DNA from: a virus
Virus record (IMG/VR): IMGVR_UViG_3300027870_000009
Location: 1 to 34,752 of that record
Length of the DNA stretch: 34,752 nt
Reading direction: 5' to 3' (one strand)
The position numbers and the translations under genes were made by a program. Shown here in pieces: positions 4,970 to 33,669 of the stretch (position 1 is its first letter; each line of letters begins with the position of its first letter). A model generated the notes under the pieces. That model was not told the DNA's origin and made no database searches. It saw only the letters and a program-made list of their open reading frames with translations.

Positions 4970-6544
4970 ATGCCGTTAGAATCTGGCAGTTCCAAAGAGG
5001 TTATTTCTAGTAATATCGCAGAACTCGTAAAGAGCGGACACTCTACGGCTCAAGCAAGTGCAATCGCATATTCAAATGCAAGAAAATCACACGGTATCGA
5101 CAGTCAAGACGAGCTACAGAATCAATCCGCTCCTGTTTTTGGTCAGGTATCATTTATCGCTTTTTCCGATCAAGATAAACTTTTATTCCTAAAGCGCAAC
5201 GATGGCTCATGGGGTTTTGCAGGCGGTCATGTTGAAATTGGCGAAACACCAATGCAGGGCGCAATCCGTGAATCAATCGAAGAAATCCAACACGCGCCAC
5301 AATCGGGATTAAAACTCATTCACAGCGATGCTCGTTGCAGTCTGTACCATTGCGACGATGGCGAGTTTATTCCTGTTCTAAACGATGAGCATAGCGGCTA
5401 TGTGTGGGCAACGATGGAAGACTGCCCTACTCCTTTGTTCCCGACTGCCGAGGCTATGGATAAGCGCGAATACGACACGAACGGCTGGTTTGAGGTAAAG
5501 AGTAATCCTTTATCTAAAGTCGGCGTATATCCGTATTCTGAGCGTTCTGTTGGCATTAGTGACAGCACAGACAAGTTCGTGAATGTATTGCGTCCAGAAG
5601 ATGAGCTATCAAGCAAACAATGTATTGATTCGTTCAAGCTCCTACCGTGGATTGACGATCATAAAATGCTGGGTAGCGAAGAACTCGGCATGACACCTGC
5701 GGAACAAAAAGGCATCCAGGGTGTGATCGGTCAAGACGTTTACTACAAAGACGGCACACTCTACGGGAACATTAAGATATTTAGCGAAGCAATGGCAACG
5801 TCCATTGAACACGGTAAAAAAGAATTGTCAGTCGGCTATCGTTGTCGTTATGAGAAATCGTCGGGTAAATTCGACGGTCAATCATATGACTTCGTGATGC
5901 GTGACATACGCGGCAACCATCTTGCACTTGTGGGGGATGGTCGAATGGGAGCTGAGGTTGCTGTTCTTGACCACTCCGAAATTAACCAAAAGGAAACTGT
6001 TATGTCTGAAAAAGACGATGTTAAAAAAGTGGAAGATGAAGTCGAAAGCGAAATGACTTTATCCGAAGCTACGGCGGCATTAGAGAAAATTATGCCTGTT
6101 GTTACTAAACTGCAAGCGTTGATTGCTGGTCAATCTACCGAAGAGCCCGATGTTGTTACAGACGGCGACGAAGAGAAAGAAGACGGCGATACAGCAAAAG
6201 ATGAAGATGAAAAAGACGACAAAGACGACAAGAAAGAAGCAATGGATATGAATGAAGTCATTGCTCAAGTTCGTGCTTCTTTGGTTGCTGAATCTTCAAC
6301 TAAAGCGAAACTCCATGCACAACTTGCGCCACACATTGGCACGTTTGACCATTCAGAAATGAGCGTTGGTCAAATGGCGCAATACGGCTGCAAACAATTA
6401 GGCATCGAAGCTCCAAAGAGCGGCGGTGTTAGTTTTCTTCAAGCCTTCTTACTGGGTAAAGGCGCACCGTCTGTTGCAATGGACGCTGCACCAACTCGCA
6501 AAGCTGGCAACTTCCTAGACCGTCATATTCAAGGGGCTAAATAA
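4970..6544 (+). CDS. Nudix domain + DUF2213 prohead protease + scaffold polyprotein
   Basis: A 524-residue multidomain protein. Residues 1-42 are a short helical motif starting MPLESGSSKEVI, seen at the front of other phage head proteins. Residues about 55-160 are a Nudix hydrolase with an intact box from G86: GHVEIGETPMQ, then REsIEEI with the catalytic glutamates. Residues about 170-340 match DUF2213, the phage capsid maturation protease (KVGVYPYSERSVG at the front; ELSVGYRCRYE and NHLALVGDGRMGAEV, with the likely catalytic His327, at the back). Residues 345-524 are acidic, Lys/Glu/Asp-rich and helical, as expected of an internal scaffold. ATG at 6002 (residue 345) has its own ribosome-binding site. 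Followed by cement and capsid genes. What the Nudix part does (house-cleaning of nucleotides, ADP-ribose or cap-like substrates) cannot be told. Confidence 0.88.
   Translation: MPLESGSSKEVISSNIAELVKSGHSTAQASAIAYSNARKSHGIDSQDELQNQSAPVFGQVSFIAFSDQDKLLFLKRNDGSWGFAGGHVEIGETPMQGAIRESIEEIQHAPQSGLKLIHSDARCSLYHCDDGEFIPVLNDEHSGYVWATMEDCPTPLFPTAEAMDKREYDTNGWFEVKSNPLSKVGVYPYSERSVGISDSTDKFVNVLRPEDELSSKQCIDSFKLLPWIDDHKMLGSEELGMTPAEQKGIQGVIGQDVYYKDGTLYGNIKIFSEAMATSIEHGKKELSVGYRCRYEKSSGKFDGQSYDFVMRDIRGNHLALVGDGRMGAEVAVLDHSEINQKETVMSEKDDVKKVEDEVESEMTLSEATAALEKIMPVVTKLQALIAGQSTEEPDVVTDGDEEKEDGDTAKDEDEKDDKDDKKEAMDMNEVIAQVRASLVAESSTKAKLHAQLAPHIGTFDHSEMSVGQMAQYGCKQLGIEAPKSGGVSFLQAFLLGKGAPSVAMDAAPTRKAGNFLDRHIQGAK
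6002..6544 (+). CDS. Probable nested scaffold protein (internal in-frame start)
   Basis: ATG at 6002 is in frame with the protease gene and is preceded by AAAAGGA (about 5988-5994) at a spacing of 7 bases, a better ribosome-binding site than that of the full gene. Translation from here gives 180 residues, MSEKDDVKKVEDEVES and onward, lacking the Nudix and protease domains. It holds an acidic run at about 50-75 and a helical C-terminus. The arrangement mirrors lambda C/Nu3, where the scaffold is made from an internal start of the protease gene. Initiation at this codon is inferred from the sequence only. Confidence 0.6.
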   Translation: MSEKDDVKKVEDEVESEMTLSEATAALEKIMPVVTKLQALIAGQSTEEPDVVTDGDEEKEDGDTAKDEDEKDDKDDKKEAMDMNEVIAQVRASLVAESSTKAKLHAQLAPHIGTFDHSEMSVGQMAQYGCKQLGIEAPKSGGVSFLQAFLLGKGAPSVAMDAAPTRKAGNFLDRHIQGAK

Positions 6545-26575: not shown

Positions 26576-27208
26576 CTAGCGTATGATTGAGCTAGAGAGG
26601 GTTTGATTTAATTCCGCTAAACGTTCATCAATAATTCGATTAAACGCACGCACATCGTTTTCCATTCCTGCAATATCCAATTCACTCGCTAAAACGCGGA
26701 TAACGACGATTTGCAAGTGTTCAGGTAGTCGAGGATCGAAGCTCACGAAGTCGCACCACAAACGCTTTGTACAAGCAATTTGCCATGTAATTTGCGGAAG
26801 ATATTCGGCTGGAACAGTTTTAGTCAATAACGTGTTGATATGCGTTTCTGATTTAGGGCATTTAACTTCGATCAGACCATCATTACCGACAAGACCGTCA
26901 GGTGACGCGCCTGTCATTTCAATAAACGGATGATCCACCAAGCCAGTACCGACCACGAAAGAGTCTGTTTTAGACTCATAGGCGGCGATTGCGTTAGGCT
27001 CGTTATCAATGCCCCACTGCATATCTTTAGACGTGAAAAACTCATCTTGTACGCCAGTAATGCGCTCGGTTAAGACAGTCAATTGCGTAGCGTTTAATGC
27101 TTTACCTTTGACTGGTTTCGCATTCATTCCGCTGATACGGCTGGCGGTTAATTTGCCAACTCGATCAGAATGCCAATCATCACTCCGCTGTAGTATGTTC
27201 AACTTCAC
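26576..27208 (-). CDS. YqaJ-family recombination exonuclease (lambda Exo type)
   Basis: A 210-residue member of the PD-(D/E)xK superfamily that degrades the 5' strand at a double-strand end so that its RecT partner can coat the 3' strand. Motifs: QRSDDWHSDRVGKLTAS near the N-terminus, WGIDNEPNAIAAYE, the catalytic block GASPDGLVGNDGLIEVKCP (acidic residue, then E-x-K), and a Gln in PQITWQIACT. The length is within the family's range. It overlaps the end of recT by 29 bases, which points to joint translation. It would repair or concatenate phage DNA. Confidence 0.92.
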   Translation of the reverse strand: MKLNILQRSDDWHSDRVGKLTASRISGMNAKPVKGKALNATQLTVLTERITGVQDEFFTSKDMQWGIDNEPNAIAAYESKTDSFVVGTGLVDHPFIEMTGASPDGLVGNDGLIEVKCPKSETHINTLLTKTVPAEYLPQITWQIACTKRLWCDFVSFDPRLPEHLQIVVIRVLASELDIAGMENDVRAFNRIIDERLAELNQTLSSSIIR

Positions 27209-28025
27209 TCTCCTTTTGTTGTTCGTCTGATTGCTGGGCCGCTTCTTTTAATTTGACAGAATGTGTGGCCCAAAATAATGTTTTACACTTTCCAGTCGGT
27301 AATTGCTTATAAGCATCGGCTAGGGCCGCAGTTCCATCAGTGGCGACAGATTGCATATTGACCAAATGCTCATTCTCAAAATCTTCATAGCCTTCAGGCA
27401 ATTCAGAAACAAGCGTAGGTTTAACTTCACGCGCCTGCCCTTCGATGATCCGCTCGGCTTCGTCTTGGTCGTAGATACCAGCAAAGCCAAATGCTAGACG
27501 TGCGCCTTGTATTAAGCACTTATGACGAAGGAAACGCTTTGGGTGAGATTGCCACGGGCCTTCTACAACATAACCTGATTTACTTTTAAACGGTGCGCGA
27601 TACGTTTCATCCAAATACTCACGAACAATGGTCGGTTTTTCGCGGTCTTTGCGGTGAATGACAACTTCGATCCATGCTGGGGCCTTAGATTTTGCGCCAT
27701 CCATTAAAATCATTTCGTCTGAATAATTAAACTCAATGCCGTTTAGGTTTGGGTTTGAGTTAATGATCCGACTCCAACCGTCTACTCCAACCACTGGAAT
27801 AATGCCCTTGTTCTTGTCAGGAAATGCGTAGATTTCCTTTGTCCACGGATTAAGGTTGTACTGTCCCGCAACAATTAGCAATGCAGCCATTTGTTCGTCG
27901 GTGGCTTGCGTTTCTGTCTTAAATGCTGTTTGAACAAGAATCCGTTTTAATTCTTGCGGATCAATGTTTACGAGGCCCATTGACTCGGCTATGTGCTGGA
28001 TTTGTACGGTGACTAGTTGGCTCAT
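27180..28025 (-). CDS. recT: RecT-family single-strand annealing protein
   Basis: A 281-residue annealase starting at ATG 28025 (MSQLVTVQIQHIAESMGL); the longer frame to 28073 adds 16 residues that overlap the upstream gene. Family signs: LNPWTKEIYAFPDKNKGIIP with VVGVDGWSRIIN, a central VEGPWQSHPKRFLRHKCLIQ, and GARLAFGFAGIYDQDEAERI. It pairs with the YqaJ exonuclease downstream, forming a Red-like recombination system. The last 30 residues are charged and disordered-looking. The upstream coiled-coil gene ends 7 bases before it. Confidence 0.92.
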   Translation of the reverse strand: MSQLVTVQIQHIAESMGLVNIDPQELKRILVQTAFKTETQATDEQMAALLIVAGQYNLNPWTKEIYAFPDKNKGIIPVVGVDGWSRIINSNPNLNGIEFNYSDEMILMDGAKSKAPAWIEVVIHRKDREKPTIVREYLDETYRAPFKSKSGYVVEGPWQSHPKRFLRHKCLIQGARLAFGFAGIYDQDEAERIIEGQAREVKPTLVSELPEGYEDFENEHLVNMQSVATDGTAALADAYKQLPTGKCKTLFWATHSVKLKEAAQQSDEQQKESEVEHTTAE

Positions 28026-28032
28026 AATATTC

Positions 28033-29142
28033 TCAGTATTGAATTGAAATGTGTTTGATTGCGTTTTTGGCAATCGCTTTAATCAATTTTTTTGCCTGTT
28101 CATCAGTCAAACCTTGCGCCACAAAATCAGCCATTAAACTTTGATTAATACCGCGCACATGTTCAACATCAGCAAGGCGTTTCTGTTCTGCTTGTTCAGC
28201 CTCAAGGCGTTTCGCTTCAACTTGCTTGCGTTCGGCTTCGATTGCGTCTTTTTGATCCTGTTCGGCTTTGGCTAATGCGGCAACACGATCAGATTCAGCT
28301 TGGCGCAACGTTTCTTTTTGACGTAGTTCAGCGGCTTCATTTTCAGCAACTAAACGCGCTTGTTCACGTTCAGCATTTAACTTGGCTTGTTCAGCTTCAC
28401 GCTTTGCATATTCAGCAGCAGCAATCGCATCAGCTTCACGTTTGGCATCAGCTTGACGTTGTTCATTGGCTTTCTTTTCAGCCTCAAGGCGTGCAGCATT
28501 CGCAGCATCTTCGGCAATCTTACGTTCACGTTCTTGTTGTTCGCGTTCGATTGATTCTTGACGTAAACGTGCAAGTTCGGCTTGTTCGGCTTCGAGTTTG
28601 GTTTGAGCATCAAGTGCAAATTCCAACACTTCAATAGCGGCTTGTTTCGCCACAATTGCCTCGGCTTTAAACTCTTCCCATTCATCGCCAATTACTTGAG
28701 CCTTTGCAGTATTGAGTGCAAATAGAAGTTCACTTGCTGACATGCCTACAGTTTGGCTAATCAGCTTAAAACCTTCGATATTTGCACGATGTTTTTCAAC
28801 GCGTTCTTTTTCCGCATCTTCCCACGCAGTCAACGGCGCACGAATCTCATCACGCAAAGCGTCACAACGATCACGCCATGATTTACGATCATCATCAATT
28901 AGCTTTAGGCGTGCTTTTTCTGCTGATACGAGGTCTTTACCGTGGTCATCAACTAAAACCTTTGCTTTGCTAACCTTATGGGCTTGCGCTGCGATTGCTT
29001 TGCGCCCTTTGTCCGTAGTCAGATCGGGAACGAGGCTTTTAGCTTCTTTTTCCATGCGTGAAAATAGATCATCGAGACCTCCTTTATTTTCAAAGGCTGC
29101 GACGATGTTATTTTGATTGAAAATACTTACTTCGTTTGTCAT
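28033..29142 (-). CDS. Large coiled-coil protein associated with the recT operon
   Basis: A 369-residue protein from ATG 29142 (MTNEVSIFNQNNIVAAF). An N-terminal part (to about 160) has helical, charged stretches (KSLVPDLTTDKGRKAIAAQA, DHGKDLVSAEKARLK), a pattern like DUF1351/host-cell-nuclease-inhibitor-type proteins placed next to RecT in other phages. From about 180 to 330 it is a continuous Glu/Ala/Gln/Arg/Lys-rich coiled coil of TolA-like composition. It ends in a small helical domain (LTDEQAKKLIKAIAKNAI). It has no signal peptide. It may link RecT/exonuclease to DNA or block a host nuclease. Function is inferred from neighbours only. Confidence 0.75.
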   Translation of the reverse strand: MTNEVSIFNQNNIVAAFENKGGLDDLFSRMEKEAKSLVPDLTTDKGRKAIAAQAHKVSKAKVLVDDHGKDLVSAEKARLKLIDDDRKSWRDRCDALRDEIRAPLTAWEDAEKERVEKHRANIEGFKLISQTVGMSASELLFALNTAKAQVIGDEWEEFKAEAIVAKQAAIEVLEFALDAQTKLEAEQAELARLRQESIEREQQERERKIAEDAANAARLEAEKKANEQRQADAKREADAIAAAEYAKREAEQAKLNAEREQARLVAENEAAELRQKETLRQAESDRVAALAKAEQDQKDAIEAERKQVEAKRLEAEQAEQKRLADVEHVRGINQSLMADFVAQGLTDEQAKKLIKAIAKNAIKHISIQY

Positions 29143-30660: not shown

Positions 30661-30673
30661 AAGGACAGTAGAA

Positions 30674-33175
30674 ATGGAAAACGCAGATTATCAAGCGTTC
30701 ATTGAAAACAAGATACCAGTGCCAGTCTACGGCGGATTTGATCTTGATTTAAGCGAAGTCAATCCAATGCTCAAGGATCATCAAAAAGCAGCGGTATTGT
30801 GGGCAGTAAAAGGAGGATGCAGGGCGTTATTTGAAGCGTTCGGATTAGGTAAAACCTTTCAACAATTGGAAGTTATCCGTTTAACACTCAAACATGCAGG
30901 TGGTCGTGGTTTGATCATTGCGCCGCTGGGTGTACGTCAAGAATTCAAACGCGATGCTGAAAAGCTAGGTATCGACATCAAGTTCATTCGACGCATTGAA
31001 GAGTGTGGCGATGATGGAATTTACATCACGAACTATGAAACGGTGCGCGATGGCAAGCTCGATCCAAACTTGTTCACGGCGGTTACGTTGGATGAAGCAT
31101 CATGTTTGCGTAGTTATGGCAGTCAAACATATCAGACGTTTTTAACTTTATTTAAAAAGGTTAAATATAAATACGTGGCAACTGCAACTCCAAGTCCAAA
31201 CCGATACAAAGAGCTAATCCATTACGCTGGTTTTCTTGGGATCATGGACACTGGTCAAGCACTTACCCGATGGTTTCAGCGCGATTCTACGCAAGCGAAT
31301 AACTTGACGCTATATCCTCACAAAGAGGTCGAGTTTTGGTTGTGGATTAGTAGCTGGGCTTTATTCCTGCAACGTCCAAGTGATTTGGGCTTTGATGATA
31401 CTGGATATGATTTACCTAAGCTTCACATTCATTATCATGAAGTGCAAACGAAGGTTCGCGAGATCGTTGACCTAGATGGTCAGATATCAATGTTCGCTGA
31501 TGCTGCATTGTCGCTCAAAGATGCATCACGAGAAAAACGCGAATCATTGCATGAGCGCGTGGCTAAGACAGTCGAGATTATCCAATCACAACCAGATGAT
31601 AGTTTCATCCTTTGGCACGATCAGGAAAGCGAAAGGCATGCGCTATGCAAAGCAATACCTGAGGCGAAAGATGTATTTGGATCGCAAGATTTAGATTTAC
31701 GTGAACAGCGGATCATTGATTTTGGTGATGGAAAATATAAGTACCTTGCGACCAAGCCTGTTATCGCTGGATCAGGGTGTAACTTTCAGCGTCACTGCAA
31801 CAATGCGATTTTTGTTGGCATTGGATTTAAGTTCAATGACTTCATTCAGGCGGTGCATCGTATCTATCGCTTCATGCAAGACAAGGAATGTCACATCCAT
31901 TTGATTTACGCAGATACAGAACGTGAAATCCTTAAAACCCTAGAACATAAATGGCAACAACATAACTTAATGGTGGGTAAAATGACTGAAATTATACATA
32001 AACACGGCTTAAATCATTCTGAAATGGCGGACGTGTTAAAGCGCGGATTAGGCACTACACGTCTCGAAGTGAAAGGCGAAAACTTCATAGTCGCGAATAA
32101 TGATTGCGTCAAAGAAACTCGGTTGATGGAAGAAAACAGCGTAGACCTAATCGTCACATCTATTCCATTTAGTAACCATTACGAATACACGCCGCATTAT
32201 TGCGACTTTGGACACACAGATAACAATAATCACTTTTGGGCGCAGATGGATTTTCTTGCACCTGAATTATTGCGCGTTTTAAAGCCTGGTCGATTAGCAT
32301 GTATTCACGTGAAGGATCGTATCCTGTTTGGTAATGTAACAGGTGCAGGCGTTCCGACAGTTTCGCCATTTCATGCAGAAACAATTTTTCATTATCAGAA
32401 ACACGGCTTTGATTACATGGGCATGATTACCGTTGTAACAGACGTGGTACGCGAGAATAATCAGACTTATCGTCTAGGTTGGTCGGAACAATGTAAGGAT
32501 GGCACGAAGATGGGTGTAGGTTCACCTGAGTATATTATTTTGATCCGTAAGCCACAGACGGACCGCACGCGCGGCTATGCTGACGAGCCAGTGACGAAAT
32601 CAAAAGAAGATTACACTCGCGCTCAATGGCAGGTTGATGCTCATGCATTCTGGCGTTCAAGTGGAGATCGCCAATTAACTGCTGACGAAATGGCAAGTCT
32701 ACCGCATGACGTATTGTCTAAAGTCTTCACAAAGTACAGTTTAGATCAGATTTACGATTATGAGCATCACGTCAAGATCGGTGTTGAATTGGATGTGAAG
32801 GGCGCATTACCAAGTACGTTTATGTCACTAGCTCCAGGTTCGCATCATCCCGATGTATGGCACGATGTATTGCGTATGAAAACGTTAAACGGTGAACAAG
32901 CTAAAAGAAATGTTCAATTACATGTTTGTCCGTTCCAGATTGACGTTGTAGAGCGATTAATTACACGCTATAGCAACAAAGGCGACGTTGTGTTCGATCC
33001 GTTCGGCGGCTTGATGACAGTTCCATATTGCGCCGTTAAGCTAGATCGTAAAGGTCGAGCTAGTGAATTAAATACAGGTTACTTTTTCGATGGGGTTAAA
33101 TACCTAGAACAAGCTGAACGTCAAAAAGACATGCCTTCGTTGTTTGATGCTTTGGGTGAGGATGATGTCGCATGA
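30674..33175 (+). CDS. SNF2-like helicase fused to DNA methyltransferase
   Basis: An 833-residue fusion. ATG 30674 follows AAAGGA; the frame to 30629 is unlikely. Residues about 30-425 are a two-domain SF2 ATPase: GLGKT (57-61), DEAS (140-143) as motif II, VATATPS (168-174) as motif III, GSGCNFQ as motif V, and QAVHRIYRF (about 390-398) as motif VI. Residues about 470-830 are an amino-methyltransferase. Motif IV TSIPFSNHYEY (495-505) is a variant of (D/S/T)PPY. Motif I FDPFGG (774-779) lies near the end, so the order is beta-like (motif IV before motif I). It probably methylates phage DNA while moving on it, for restriction evasion or replication/packaging control. The target sequence is unknown. 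A short gene overlaps the stop. Confidence 0.85.
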   Translation: MENADYQAFIENKIPVPVYGGFDLDLSEVNPMLKDHQKAAVLWAVKGGCRALFEAFGLGKTFQQLEVIRLTLKHAGGRGLIIAPLGVRQEFKRDAEKLGIDIKFIRRIEECGDDGIYITNYETVRDGKLDPNLFTAVTLDEASCLRSYGSQTYQTFLTLFKKVKYKYVATATPSPNRYKELIHYAGFLGIMDTGQALTRWFQRDSTQANNLTLYPHKEVEFWLWISSWALFLQRPSDLGFDDTGYDLPKLHIHYHEVQTKVREIVDLDGQISMFADAALSLKDASREKRESLHERVAKTVEIIQSQPDDSFILWHDQESERHALCKAIPEAKDVFGSQDLDLREQRIIDFGDGKYKYLATKPVIAGSGCNFQRHCNNAIFVGIGFKFNDFIQAVHRIYRFMQDKECHIHLIYADTEREILKTLEHKWQQHNLMVGKMTEIIHKHGLNHSEMADVLKRGLGTTRLEVKGENFIVANNDCVKETRLMEENSVDLIVTSIPFSNHYEYTPHYCDFGHTDNNNHFWAQMDFLAPELLRVLKPGRLACIHVKDRILFGNVTGAGVPTVSPFHAETIFHYQKHGFDYMGMITVVTDVVRENNQTYRLGWSEQCKDGTKMGVGSPEYIILIRKPQTDRTRGYADEPVTKSKEDYTRAQWQVDAHAFWRSSGDRQLTADEMASLPHDVLSKVFTKYSLDQIYDYEHHVKIGVELDVKGALPSTFMSLAPGSHHPDVWHDVLRMKTLNGEQAKRNVQLHVCPFQIDVVERLITRYSNKGDVVFDPFGGLMTVPYCAVKLDRKGRASELNTGYFFDGVKYLEQAERQKDMPSLFDALGEDDVA

Positions 33176-33669
33176 AAATGCACATGACAGCCAAATGGGA
33201 GTTGATTAGTTCTGCGGAGCTAATCGACGAACTTTACCCAAACATGCAAGCCCCTGATTCATTCCTTTGCAAGATGTATCAAGGTGCGTTAGTGCCTGCG
33301 GTTTTATCGGGTGCGATTAACCAAGTTCAAAAGTGGGGCGTGACGATTGTCACGACCGCACGCGCTGATAACGGTGATATTCACACTCACGAAGTAAGTT
33401 GGTCAACAGATGAGCCAATGACATTCACAGAGTTTCTACGCGGTAAAAAAGAGTTTAGTTTGAATATTGGCTCAGGCATTCGCGTACCGTGGAAAGGTAT
33501 CAATCAGCAATGGATTAACATTGTCGATGAAGACCTTGCCGACATGACAGCGATTACCGCATGGGCTACGTGCAACTGTTTAGCTGAGGTTAAGACGAAA
33601 GGATTATCACCTTTCAGTATTAAGCAATTGCGGAATAAGTTTGTGAAATTAAATAAGGAGGCGGTATGA
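33172..33669 (+). CDS. Hypothetical protein, 165 residues
   Basis: A soluble protein that overlaps the methyltransferase stop by four bases (ATGA), starting MKMHMTAKWELISSAELIDE. It has KWGVTIVTTARADNGDIHTH in the middle and ends with a Lys-rich helix (LRNKFVKLNKEAV). No cysteine pairs, membrane segments or known catalytic motifs. Overlap with the helicase gene suggests that it is made with it, possibly as a partner, which is inference only. Confidence 0.6.
   Translation: MKMHMTAKWELISSAELIDELYPNMQAPDSFLCKMYQGALVPAVLSGAINQVQKWGVTIVTTARADNGDIHTHEVSWSTDEPMTFTEFLRGKKEFSLNIGSGIRVPWKGINQQWINIVDEDLADMTAITAWATCNCLAEVKTKGLSPFSIKQLRNKFVKLNKEAV

Follow-up and report, generated by a model that had tools for sequence, protein, structure and literature searches.

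Coupling of SNF2 ATPases with adenine methylases is widespread among phages, whether the two are fused in a single polypeptide or encoded side by side (Iyer et al. 2017, PMC5512222). Among these, the P1 protein DarB protects P1 DNA in cis (PMC5512222); it is a virion head protein of 2255 aa with a PF02384 methylase first and an SNF2-type motor second. Methylation tied to replication has a precedent on mobile elements: the orphan methyltransferases M.EcoGIX and M.BceJIII (PMC7736820) serve an anti-defence purpose and, unlike the protein described here, are single-strand-specific, plasmid-borne and have no reported fused motor, while PolI, the partner, interacts with the clamp in the authors' account. 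In eukaryotes, a clamp-binding peptide recruits the methyltransferase DNMT1 to new DNA through PCNA (PMC9690074). DNMT1 is a C5-cytosine enzyme that uses a PIP box and has no SNF2 motor in its chain. Finally, type III and single-chain type I restriction enzymes also join an ATP-dependent DNA motor to a methyltransferase, and they carry a nuclease.

Here we report on P0001, a gene on a linear IMG/VR virus contig of 34,752 bases without a completeness estimate; the whole contig is the window that was analysed. P0001 resembles DarB in that motor and DNA methylase are parts of one phage protein, with an anti-restriction use proposed for both, and differs from it in having a PF01555 beta-class enzyme C-terminal to the motor and in being an early gene. 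The mechanism proposed below would share with M.EcoGIX and M.BceJIII the tie between mobile-element orphan methylation and replication, and with DNMT1 the recruitment by a clamp-binding peptide.

Domain structure and family of P0001

By direct reading, the P0001 ORF encodes 833 aa and is free of internal stops (Table 1). Called mechanically, the ORF would start at an in-frame GTG (30629), but alignments with homologues begin at approximately residue 5. The phrog_16 profile spans both domains of the protein, and Pfam places SNF2-rel_dom at residues 36-207 (E 7.5e-7) and N6_N4_Mtase at residues 490-795 (7e-14), both passing the cut-off. Full-length relatives are 46-72% identical to P0001, a resemblance that far exceeds chance. 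Conservation of motifs was judged over 16-48 homologues. The whole-protein model drew on 48 sequences (mean pLDDT 78, pTM 0.67), and a separate one limited to the methyltransferase part drew on 91 (pTM 0.79).

Table 1. Positions in the window of P0001, its predicted domains and motifs, and two recombination genes
Feature	Positions	Strand	Basis or remark
YqaJ exonuclease	26576-27208	-	Pfam YqaJ 1.1e-23
RecT annealing protein, divergent operon	27180-28073	-	Pfam RecT 5.5e-26
AAGGA, ribosome-binding-like, 8 nt before ATG 30674	30661-30665	+	direct reading
Helicase-methyltransferase gene P0001, 833 aa	30674-33175	+	phrog_16 'DNA helicase', residues 28-828, E 2e-139
SNF2 RecA-like lobe 1, residues 30-240	30761-31393	+	Pfam SNF2-rel_dom; model vs PDB
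Walker A, GLGKT 57-61	30842-30856	+	G57, L58, K60 invariant, 48 homologues
Walker B / motif II, DEAS 140-143	31091-31102	+	D140, E141, A142 invariant, 48 homologues
Motif III, TATP 170-173	31181-31192	+	T170, A171, P173 invariant, 48 homologues
RecA-like lobe 2, residues 241-434	31394-31975	+	contains motifs V, VI
Motif V, GSGCNFQ 366-372	31769-31789	+	G366, G368, N370, Q372 invariant, 48 homologues
Motif VI, Q392..R396..R399	31847-31879	+	all three invariant, 48 homologues
Helical junction motor/methyltransferase, residues 435-470	31976-32083	+	conservation lower, 0.47
Beta-class DNA amino-methyltransferase domain, residues 471-811	32084-33106	+	Pfam N6_N4_Mtase + model
Catalytic motif IV TSIPF, 495-499	32156-32170	+	S, P, F invariant, 48 homologues
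Target-recognition-like region, 628-727, between motifs VIII and X	32555-32854	+	mean identity 0.60
Motif X region HVCPFQ 750-755 and SAM-binding motif I DPFGG 775-779	32921-33010	+	
Putative sliding-clamp-binding motif MPSLFD, 820-825	33131-33148	+	conserved island in disordered C-tail

As judged by its motifs and the predicted two-lobed fold, the N-terminal half is an SNF2-type SF2 ATPase. Helicase motifs I, II, III, V and VI, all claimed in the first-pass annotation, can be read directly and are conserved over the homologues, and in a structure search the model matches SNF2 remodellers in the PDB (best E 2.5e-16).

The C-terminal half is, on the same kinds of evidence, a beta-class methyltransferase with the order IV-VIII, target region, X-I-II; it is the position of motif IV ahead of X-I that gives the beta order. 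Its model matches TTHA0409 (2zie, E 9e-15), CcrM (6pbd) and M.PvuII (1boo), which have the beta-class fold in common with P0001 and differ from it in lacking a motor and in their target regions. H750, C752, P753, Q755, D775, F777 and G779 are invariant in 48 homologues, and E798-L is a further conserved methyltransferase motif. The SAM-binding and catalytic residues, for whose loss we looked, are intact and give no ground for rejecting the enzyme. With the ORF intact, both Pfam domains above cut-off and the motifs in place, the original reading of one 833-residue SNF2-like translocase and beta-order methyltransferase stands.

No match to a nuclease domain was obtained for P0001 in Pfam, NCBIfam or PHROGs, and on this ground a reading as a type I/III restriction enzyme was rejected. 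The likeness to single-chain restriction enzymes suggested earlier is not close, since those have a gamma-class methyltransferase with a separate target domain. Searches with PADLOC did not place P0001 in a defence family, the matches being mostly generic MTase_II hits and weak SNF2 ones. The downstream gene at 33172-33669 was rejected as a conserved partner, since the loci from the first two scans of viral contigs (the best 80 contigs per scan) contained nothing homologous to it.

Among 50,697 GenBank phage records, 404 match P0001 and 304 of these matches cover at least 80% of the protein; 16 plasmid records also match, five of them over most of the length. Many family members already bear the annotation 'DNA helicase/methylase'. 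The SNF2-methyltransferase fusion is therefore a large known phage family, and the view that the architecture is unusual has to be given up, the pairing having been described before (Iyer et al. 2017). The products of Arthrobacter Tiff81 gp71 and Mycobacterium Job42 gp69 and those of Pseudomonas PA8 and Rhizobium RR1-A are 52-65% identical to P0001 (tblastn) and share its full-length architecture, motifs, SIPF and tail, with no essential difference. The phrog_16 and actinophage 'DNA helicase/methylase' annotations mention neither the clade split in motif IV nor the clamp-like tail treated below.

Motif IV and the two clades

The first-pass annotation had noted TSIPF in place of xPPY, and this substitution is real: P0001 does not have the canonical motif IV, (D/N/S)PP(Y/F), and reads S-I-P-F. 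In a quick tree of 82 methyltransferase domains, with some long branches, clades A and B form the two sides of one branch (100*); clade A members are all fused, and those of clade B are fused or split into two genes. Counted over non-redundant proteins, motif IV of clade A is SIPF in 97/100 and SVPF in 3/100, a count that leaves out L244, a 51%-identical clade A relative with SIPF, because it does not fit the clade A pattern used. Clade B has SPPF in 62 of 65 and SIPF in the remaining three, at least one of which (L144) sits within clade B in the tree. Based on these sequences, TSIPF is the marker of a monophyletic fused clade and SPPF that of its sister clade. The target-recognition-like region is mostly missing in clade B, and its pLDDT in the model is low in places.

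A decayed active site was considered as an explanation of TSIPF and rejected, since S-[I/V]-P-F is fixed throughout clade A (100/100) and all other catalytic and SAM-binding residues are intact. The two forms occur at the same locus within one phage genus: in Job42 a fused gene with SIPF, and in BobaPhett split genes with SPPF, follow an HNH gene and an ATPase gene of RecA-like or AAA type, and V186 and VK42 (Ficleduovirus) are a second pair with both forms at one place. Together with the clade-wide motif, these pairs indicate that the change from P to I does not preclude persistence, and suggest that one form can stand in for the other. The rRNA amino-methyltransferases ErmC and KsgA carry NIPY/NLPY, which suggests that the second position of motif IV is tolerant.

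Intein-like inserts were seen in the methyltransferase of two members, beside motif IV in L013:7995-11567 and before motif I in Job42 (L025:8983-12495); inteins favour such conserved sites in needed enzymes. In NC_021538, NC_028946 and NC_011287 the RefSeq name of the family gene is 'anaerobic ribonucleoside reductase large subunit', and the matches to the family are split as by an insert; this label probably derives from an intein.

The C-terminal tail

After the last long helix the tail is variable except for one island, x-P-[S/T/D]-L-F-D, and residues 823-833 have pLDDT <50. Identity in the island is 0.88 for P, 0.96 for L823, 1.0 for F824 and 0.77 for D, compared with mostly 0.1-0.35 at the flanking positions. 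The bacterial beta-clamp-binding consensus is QL[S/D]LF or QxxLF, often C-terminal (PMC9690074, PMC12309361), and the conserved tail of the family closely resembles it, which suggests a sliding-clamp-binding peptide.

The tail patterns were picked after inspection of the tails (the Q-type motif itself is published), so that the following comparisons give the size of an effect and are no test of a hypothesis set beforehand: xP.LF occurs in 85/100 tails of clade A, with 0.9 expected from shuffling (maximum 5, 1000 shuffles); PxLF in 97/108 family ORFs against 16/2558 other ORFs, at least four of which are family pieces; Q..[LMI][FWYL] in 27/65 clade B tails against 2.1 in shuffled tails (maximum 10); and the strict form Q.[SDTEA][LM]F in 13/54 clade B tails against 0.16 in shuffled tails, 1/746 other ORF tails and 0/1102 internal windows. 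Q forms in clade A (5/100 against 2.8 shuffled) are by themselves not enriched, and some clade B tails have no recognisable motif. Clade B tails include QADMF, QIDMF, QISLF, QESLF, QKTLF and QDDLF, and some clade A tails read QISLF, QITLF, QKSLF or QPTLF; L244 terminates in QLSLF. QLSLF, QADMF, QISLF and QIDMF are identical to known clamp motifs, QADMF being the one in E. coli DnaE.

P0001 itself, like most of clade A, has M and not Q at the first position, so that MPSLF fits the consensus at positions 4-5 and not at position 1. Changes at position 1 weaken clamp binding in E. coli (PMC12309361), and weak forms of the motif (PLPLF/xLPLF/xxxLF) occur in the polymerases DnaE2/DnaE3 (PMC3919608). 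With M at this position, the predicted binding of P0001 to a clamp would be weaker than that of QxxLF.

The tail persists where the methyltransferase does not: L017 and L018 lack that domain and keep MPTLFDFEEG, and in phage Clown, where only a methyltransferase remnant is left, APSLFD is still there. The former are natural variants, helicases of 457 aa (L017:1700-3073, L018:7998-9371) in which the methyltransferase is missing from the junction onward. The helicases of split clade B pairs (L134:3610-5004, L142:1291-2679) end in another conserved peptide, approximately M-x-[ILV]-P-x-[WF], for example KVSMPRWIG, PMTIPSWL and KMILPEWDEF. Near one family gene, an annotated C5-cytosine methyltransferase (L039:9085-10404) ends in the clamp-like GQLNLFLNECEGMCGV, and L051:8252-8743 ends in GQATLF. 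A regular-expression screen of other phage methyltransferases for clamp tails was uninformative, as it caught only four ORFs, two of them from the P0001 family.

In the titles, abstracts and term counts of the open-access literature, we found no mention of a clamp motif for SNF2 proteins or phage methylases. The clamp-like tail looks new, the architecture being already known; overlooked in the first-pass annotation, it is the strongest clue to how P0001 is deployed.

Genomic setting, proposed mechanism and alternatives

P0001 lies in an early region outside the head genes. (Amid the latter, at 4970-6544 of the window, a NUDIX domain is fused to a DUF2213 domain.) The earlier description of a phage lacking other replication enzymes is unsupported, because the virus contig is linear, without a completeness estimate, and encodes RecT and YqaJ. 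No DnaN was found on the contig, an absence that for the same linear contig says little, and a host clamp must be assumed for P0001. The relatives' setting fits replication/recombination modules: the neighbours are an exonuclease, an ATPase, SSB, DnaN and RusA in Tiff81, DnaN, SSB and primase in RR1-A, and SSB and RdgC in PA8, with a RecA-like ATPase and a replication initiator also among the neighbours in relatives. A phage DnaN is near the family gene in 14 of 119 loci (immediately upstream in L006-L008 and L017-L019), and one DnaN matches 174/50,697 phage records by tblastn; since the two figures were obtained by unlike methods from separate collections, with related phages counted several times, the co-occurrence is suggestive only.

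We regard it as somewhat probable, judging from sequence, that P0001 is tethered to the clamp and, as a translocase-methyltransferase coupled to replication, modifies newly made phage DNA. The motor would move along double-stranded DNA, and the S-I-P-F loop would methylate an exocyclic amino group, either N4 of cytosine or N6 of adenine. The disordered MPSLFD peptide would bind the beta sliding clamp (the host's or, where encoded, the phage's own) at its hydrophobic pocket. Such tethering would let phage DNA be methylated behind the fork just after it has been copied, and the motor may serve the fork or recombination intermediates and/or keep the enzyme moving. The likeliest gain would be progeny DNA modified ahead of host restriction enzymes. 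We infer clamp binding (from the tail sequence), replication coupling and an anti-restriction purpose, the last being probable by analogy. Both roles put forward in the first-pass annotation, processive modification against restriction and replication or recombination remodelling, are retained as candidates.

It is unlikely, though well worth weighing, that the motor is a replication/recombination helicase with the methyltransferase as a loosely linked passenger, the fusion co-delivering independent early functions without tethering or processive methylation. Helicase-only relatives are located in polymerase/VirE replication modules, L017/L018 keep the helicase alone, and clade B often has helicase and methyltransferase as separate adjacent genes, all as expected of a passenger; on the other hand, fused or adjacent forms have been kept across highly diverse phages and replace one another at a single locus, and the tail island is conserved as strongly as the catalytic residues.

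Quite improbable is a DarB-like action in cis, in which the enzyme would use its motor to scan along injected or replicating DNA, methylating it without a clamp, as proposed for such dyads (Iyer et al. 2017). DarB combines the same two activities, protects P1 DNA in cis (PMC5512222) and has an apparent motif IV, NVPF (GNVPF in L200:10469-17236, minus strand), that likewise lacks the double proline of PPY. However, similarity between the two is not significant (BLASTP, E 0.047), which together with the other methylase family and domain order (PF02384 first versus PF01555 second) led us to reject a place for P0001 among the DarB-like proteins, and DarB resides in the virion head whereas P0001 is encoded early, away from the head genes. 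Very improbable, finally, is a tail that docks or dimerises with a non-clamp partner, for although MPSLFD deviates from the consensus at position 1, relatives have QLSLF, QISLF, QITLF, QADMF or QIDMF there, the established clamp-binding form.

The clamp-tethered reading of P0001 may be extended, more tentatively, to hundreds of diverse phages: with the clamp peptide in fused and split versions, and the motor either fused to the methyltransferase or encoded beside it, a translocase-methyltransferase would place an epigenetic mark at the fork. The reason why phages would combine a motor with an orphan methyltransferase has so far been guesswork. If true, a conserved clamp-binding tail would link phage DNA modification to replication, a link hinted at for plasmids by M.EcoGIX and shown in eukaryotes by DNMT1-PCNA, of which a phage fork-marking enzyme would be the bacterial-virus counterpart. 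It would also correct the annotation of many genes, including some named 'anaerobic ribonucleoside reductase', and would be relevant to the escape of some phages from restriction during their first replication round.
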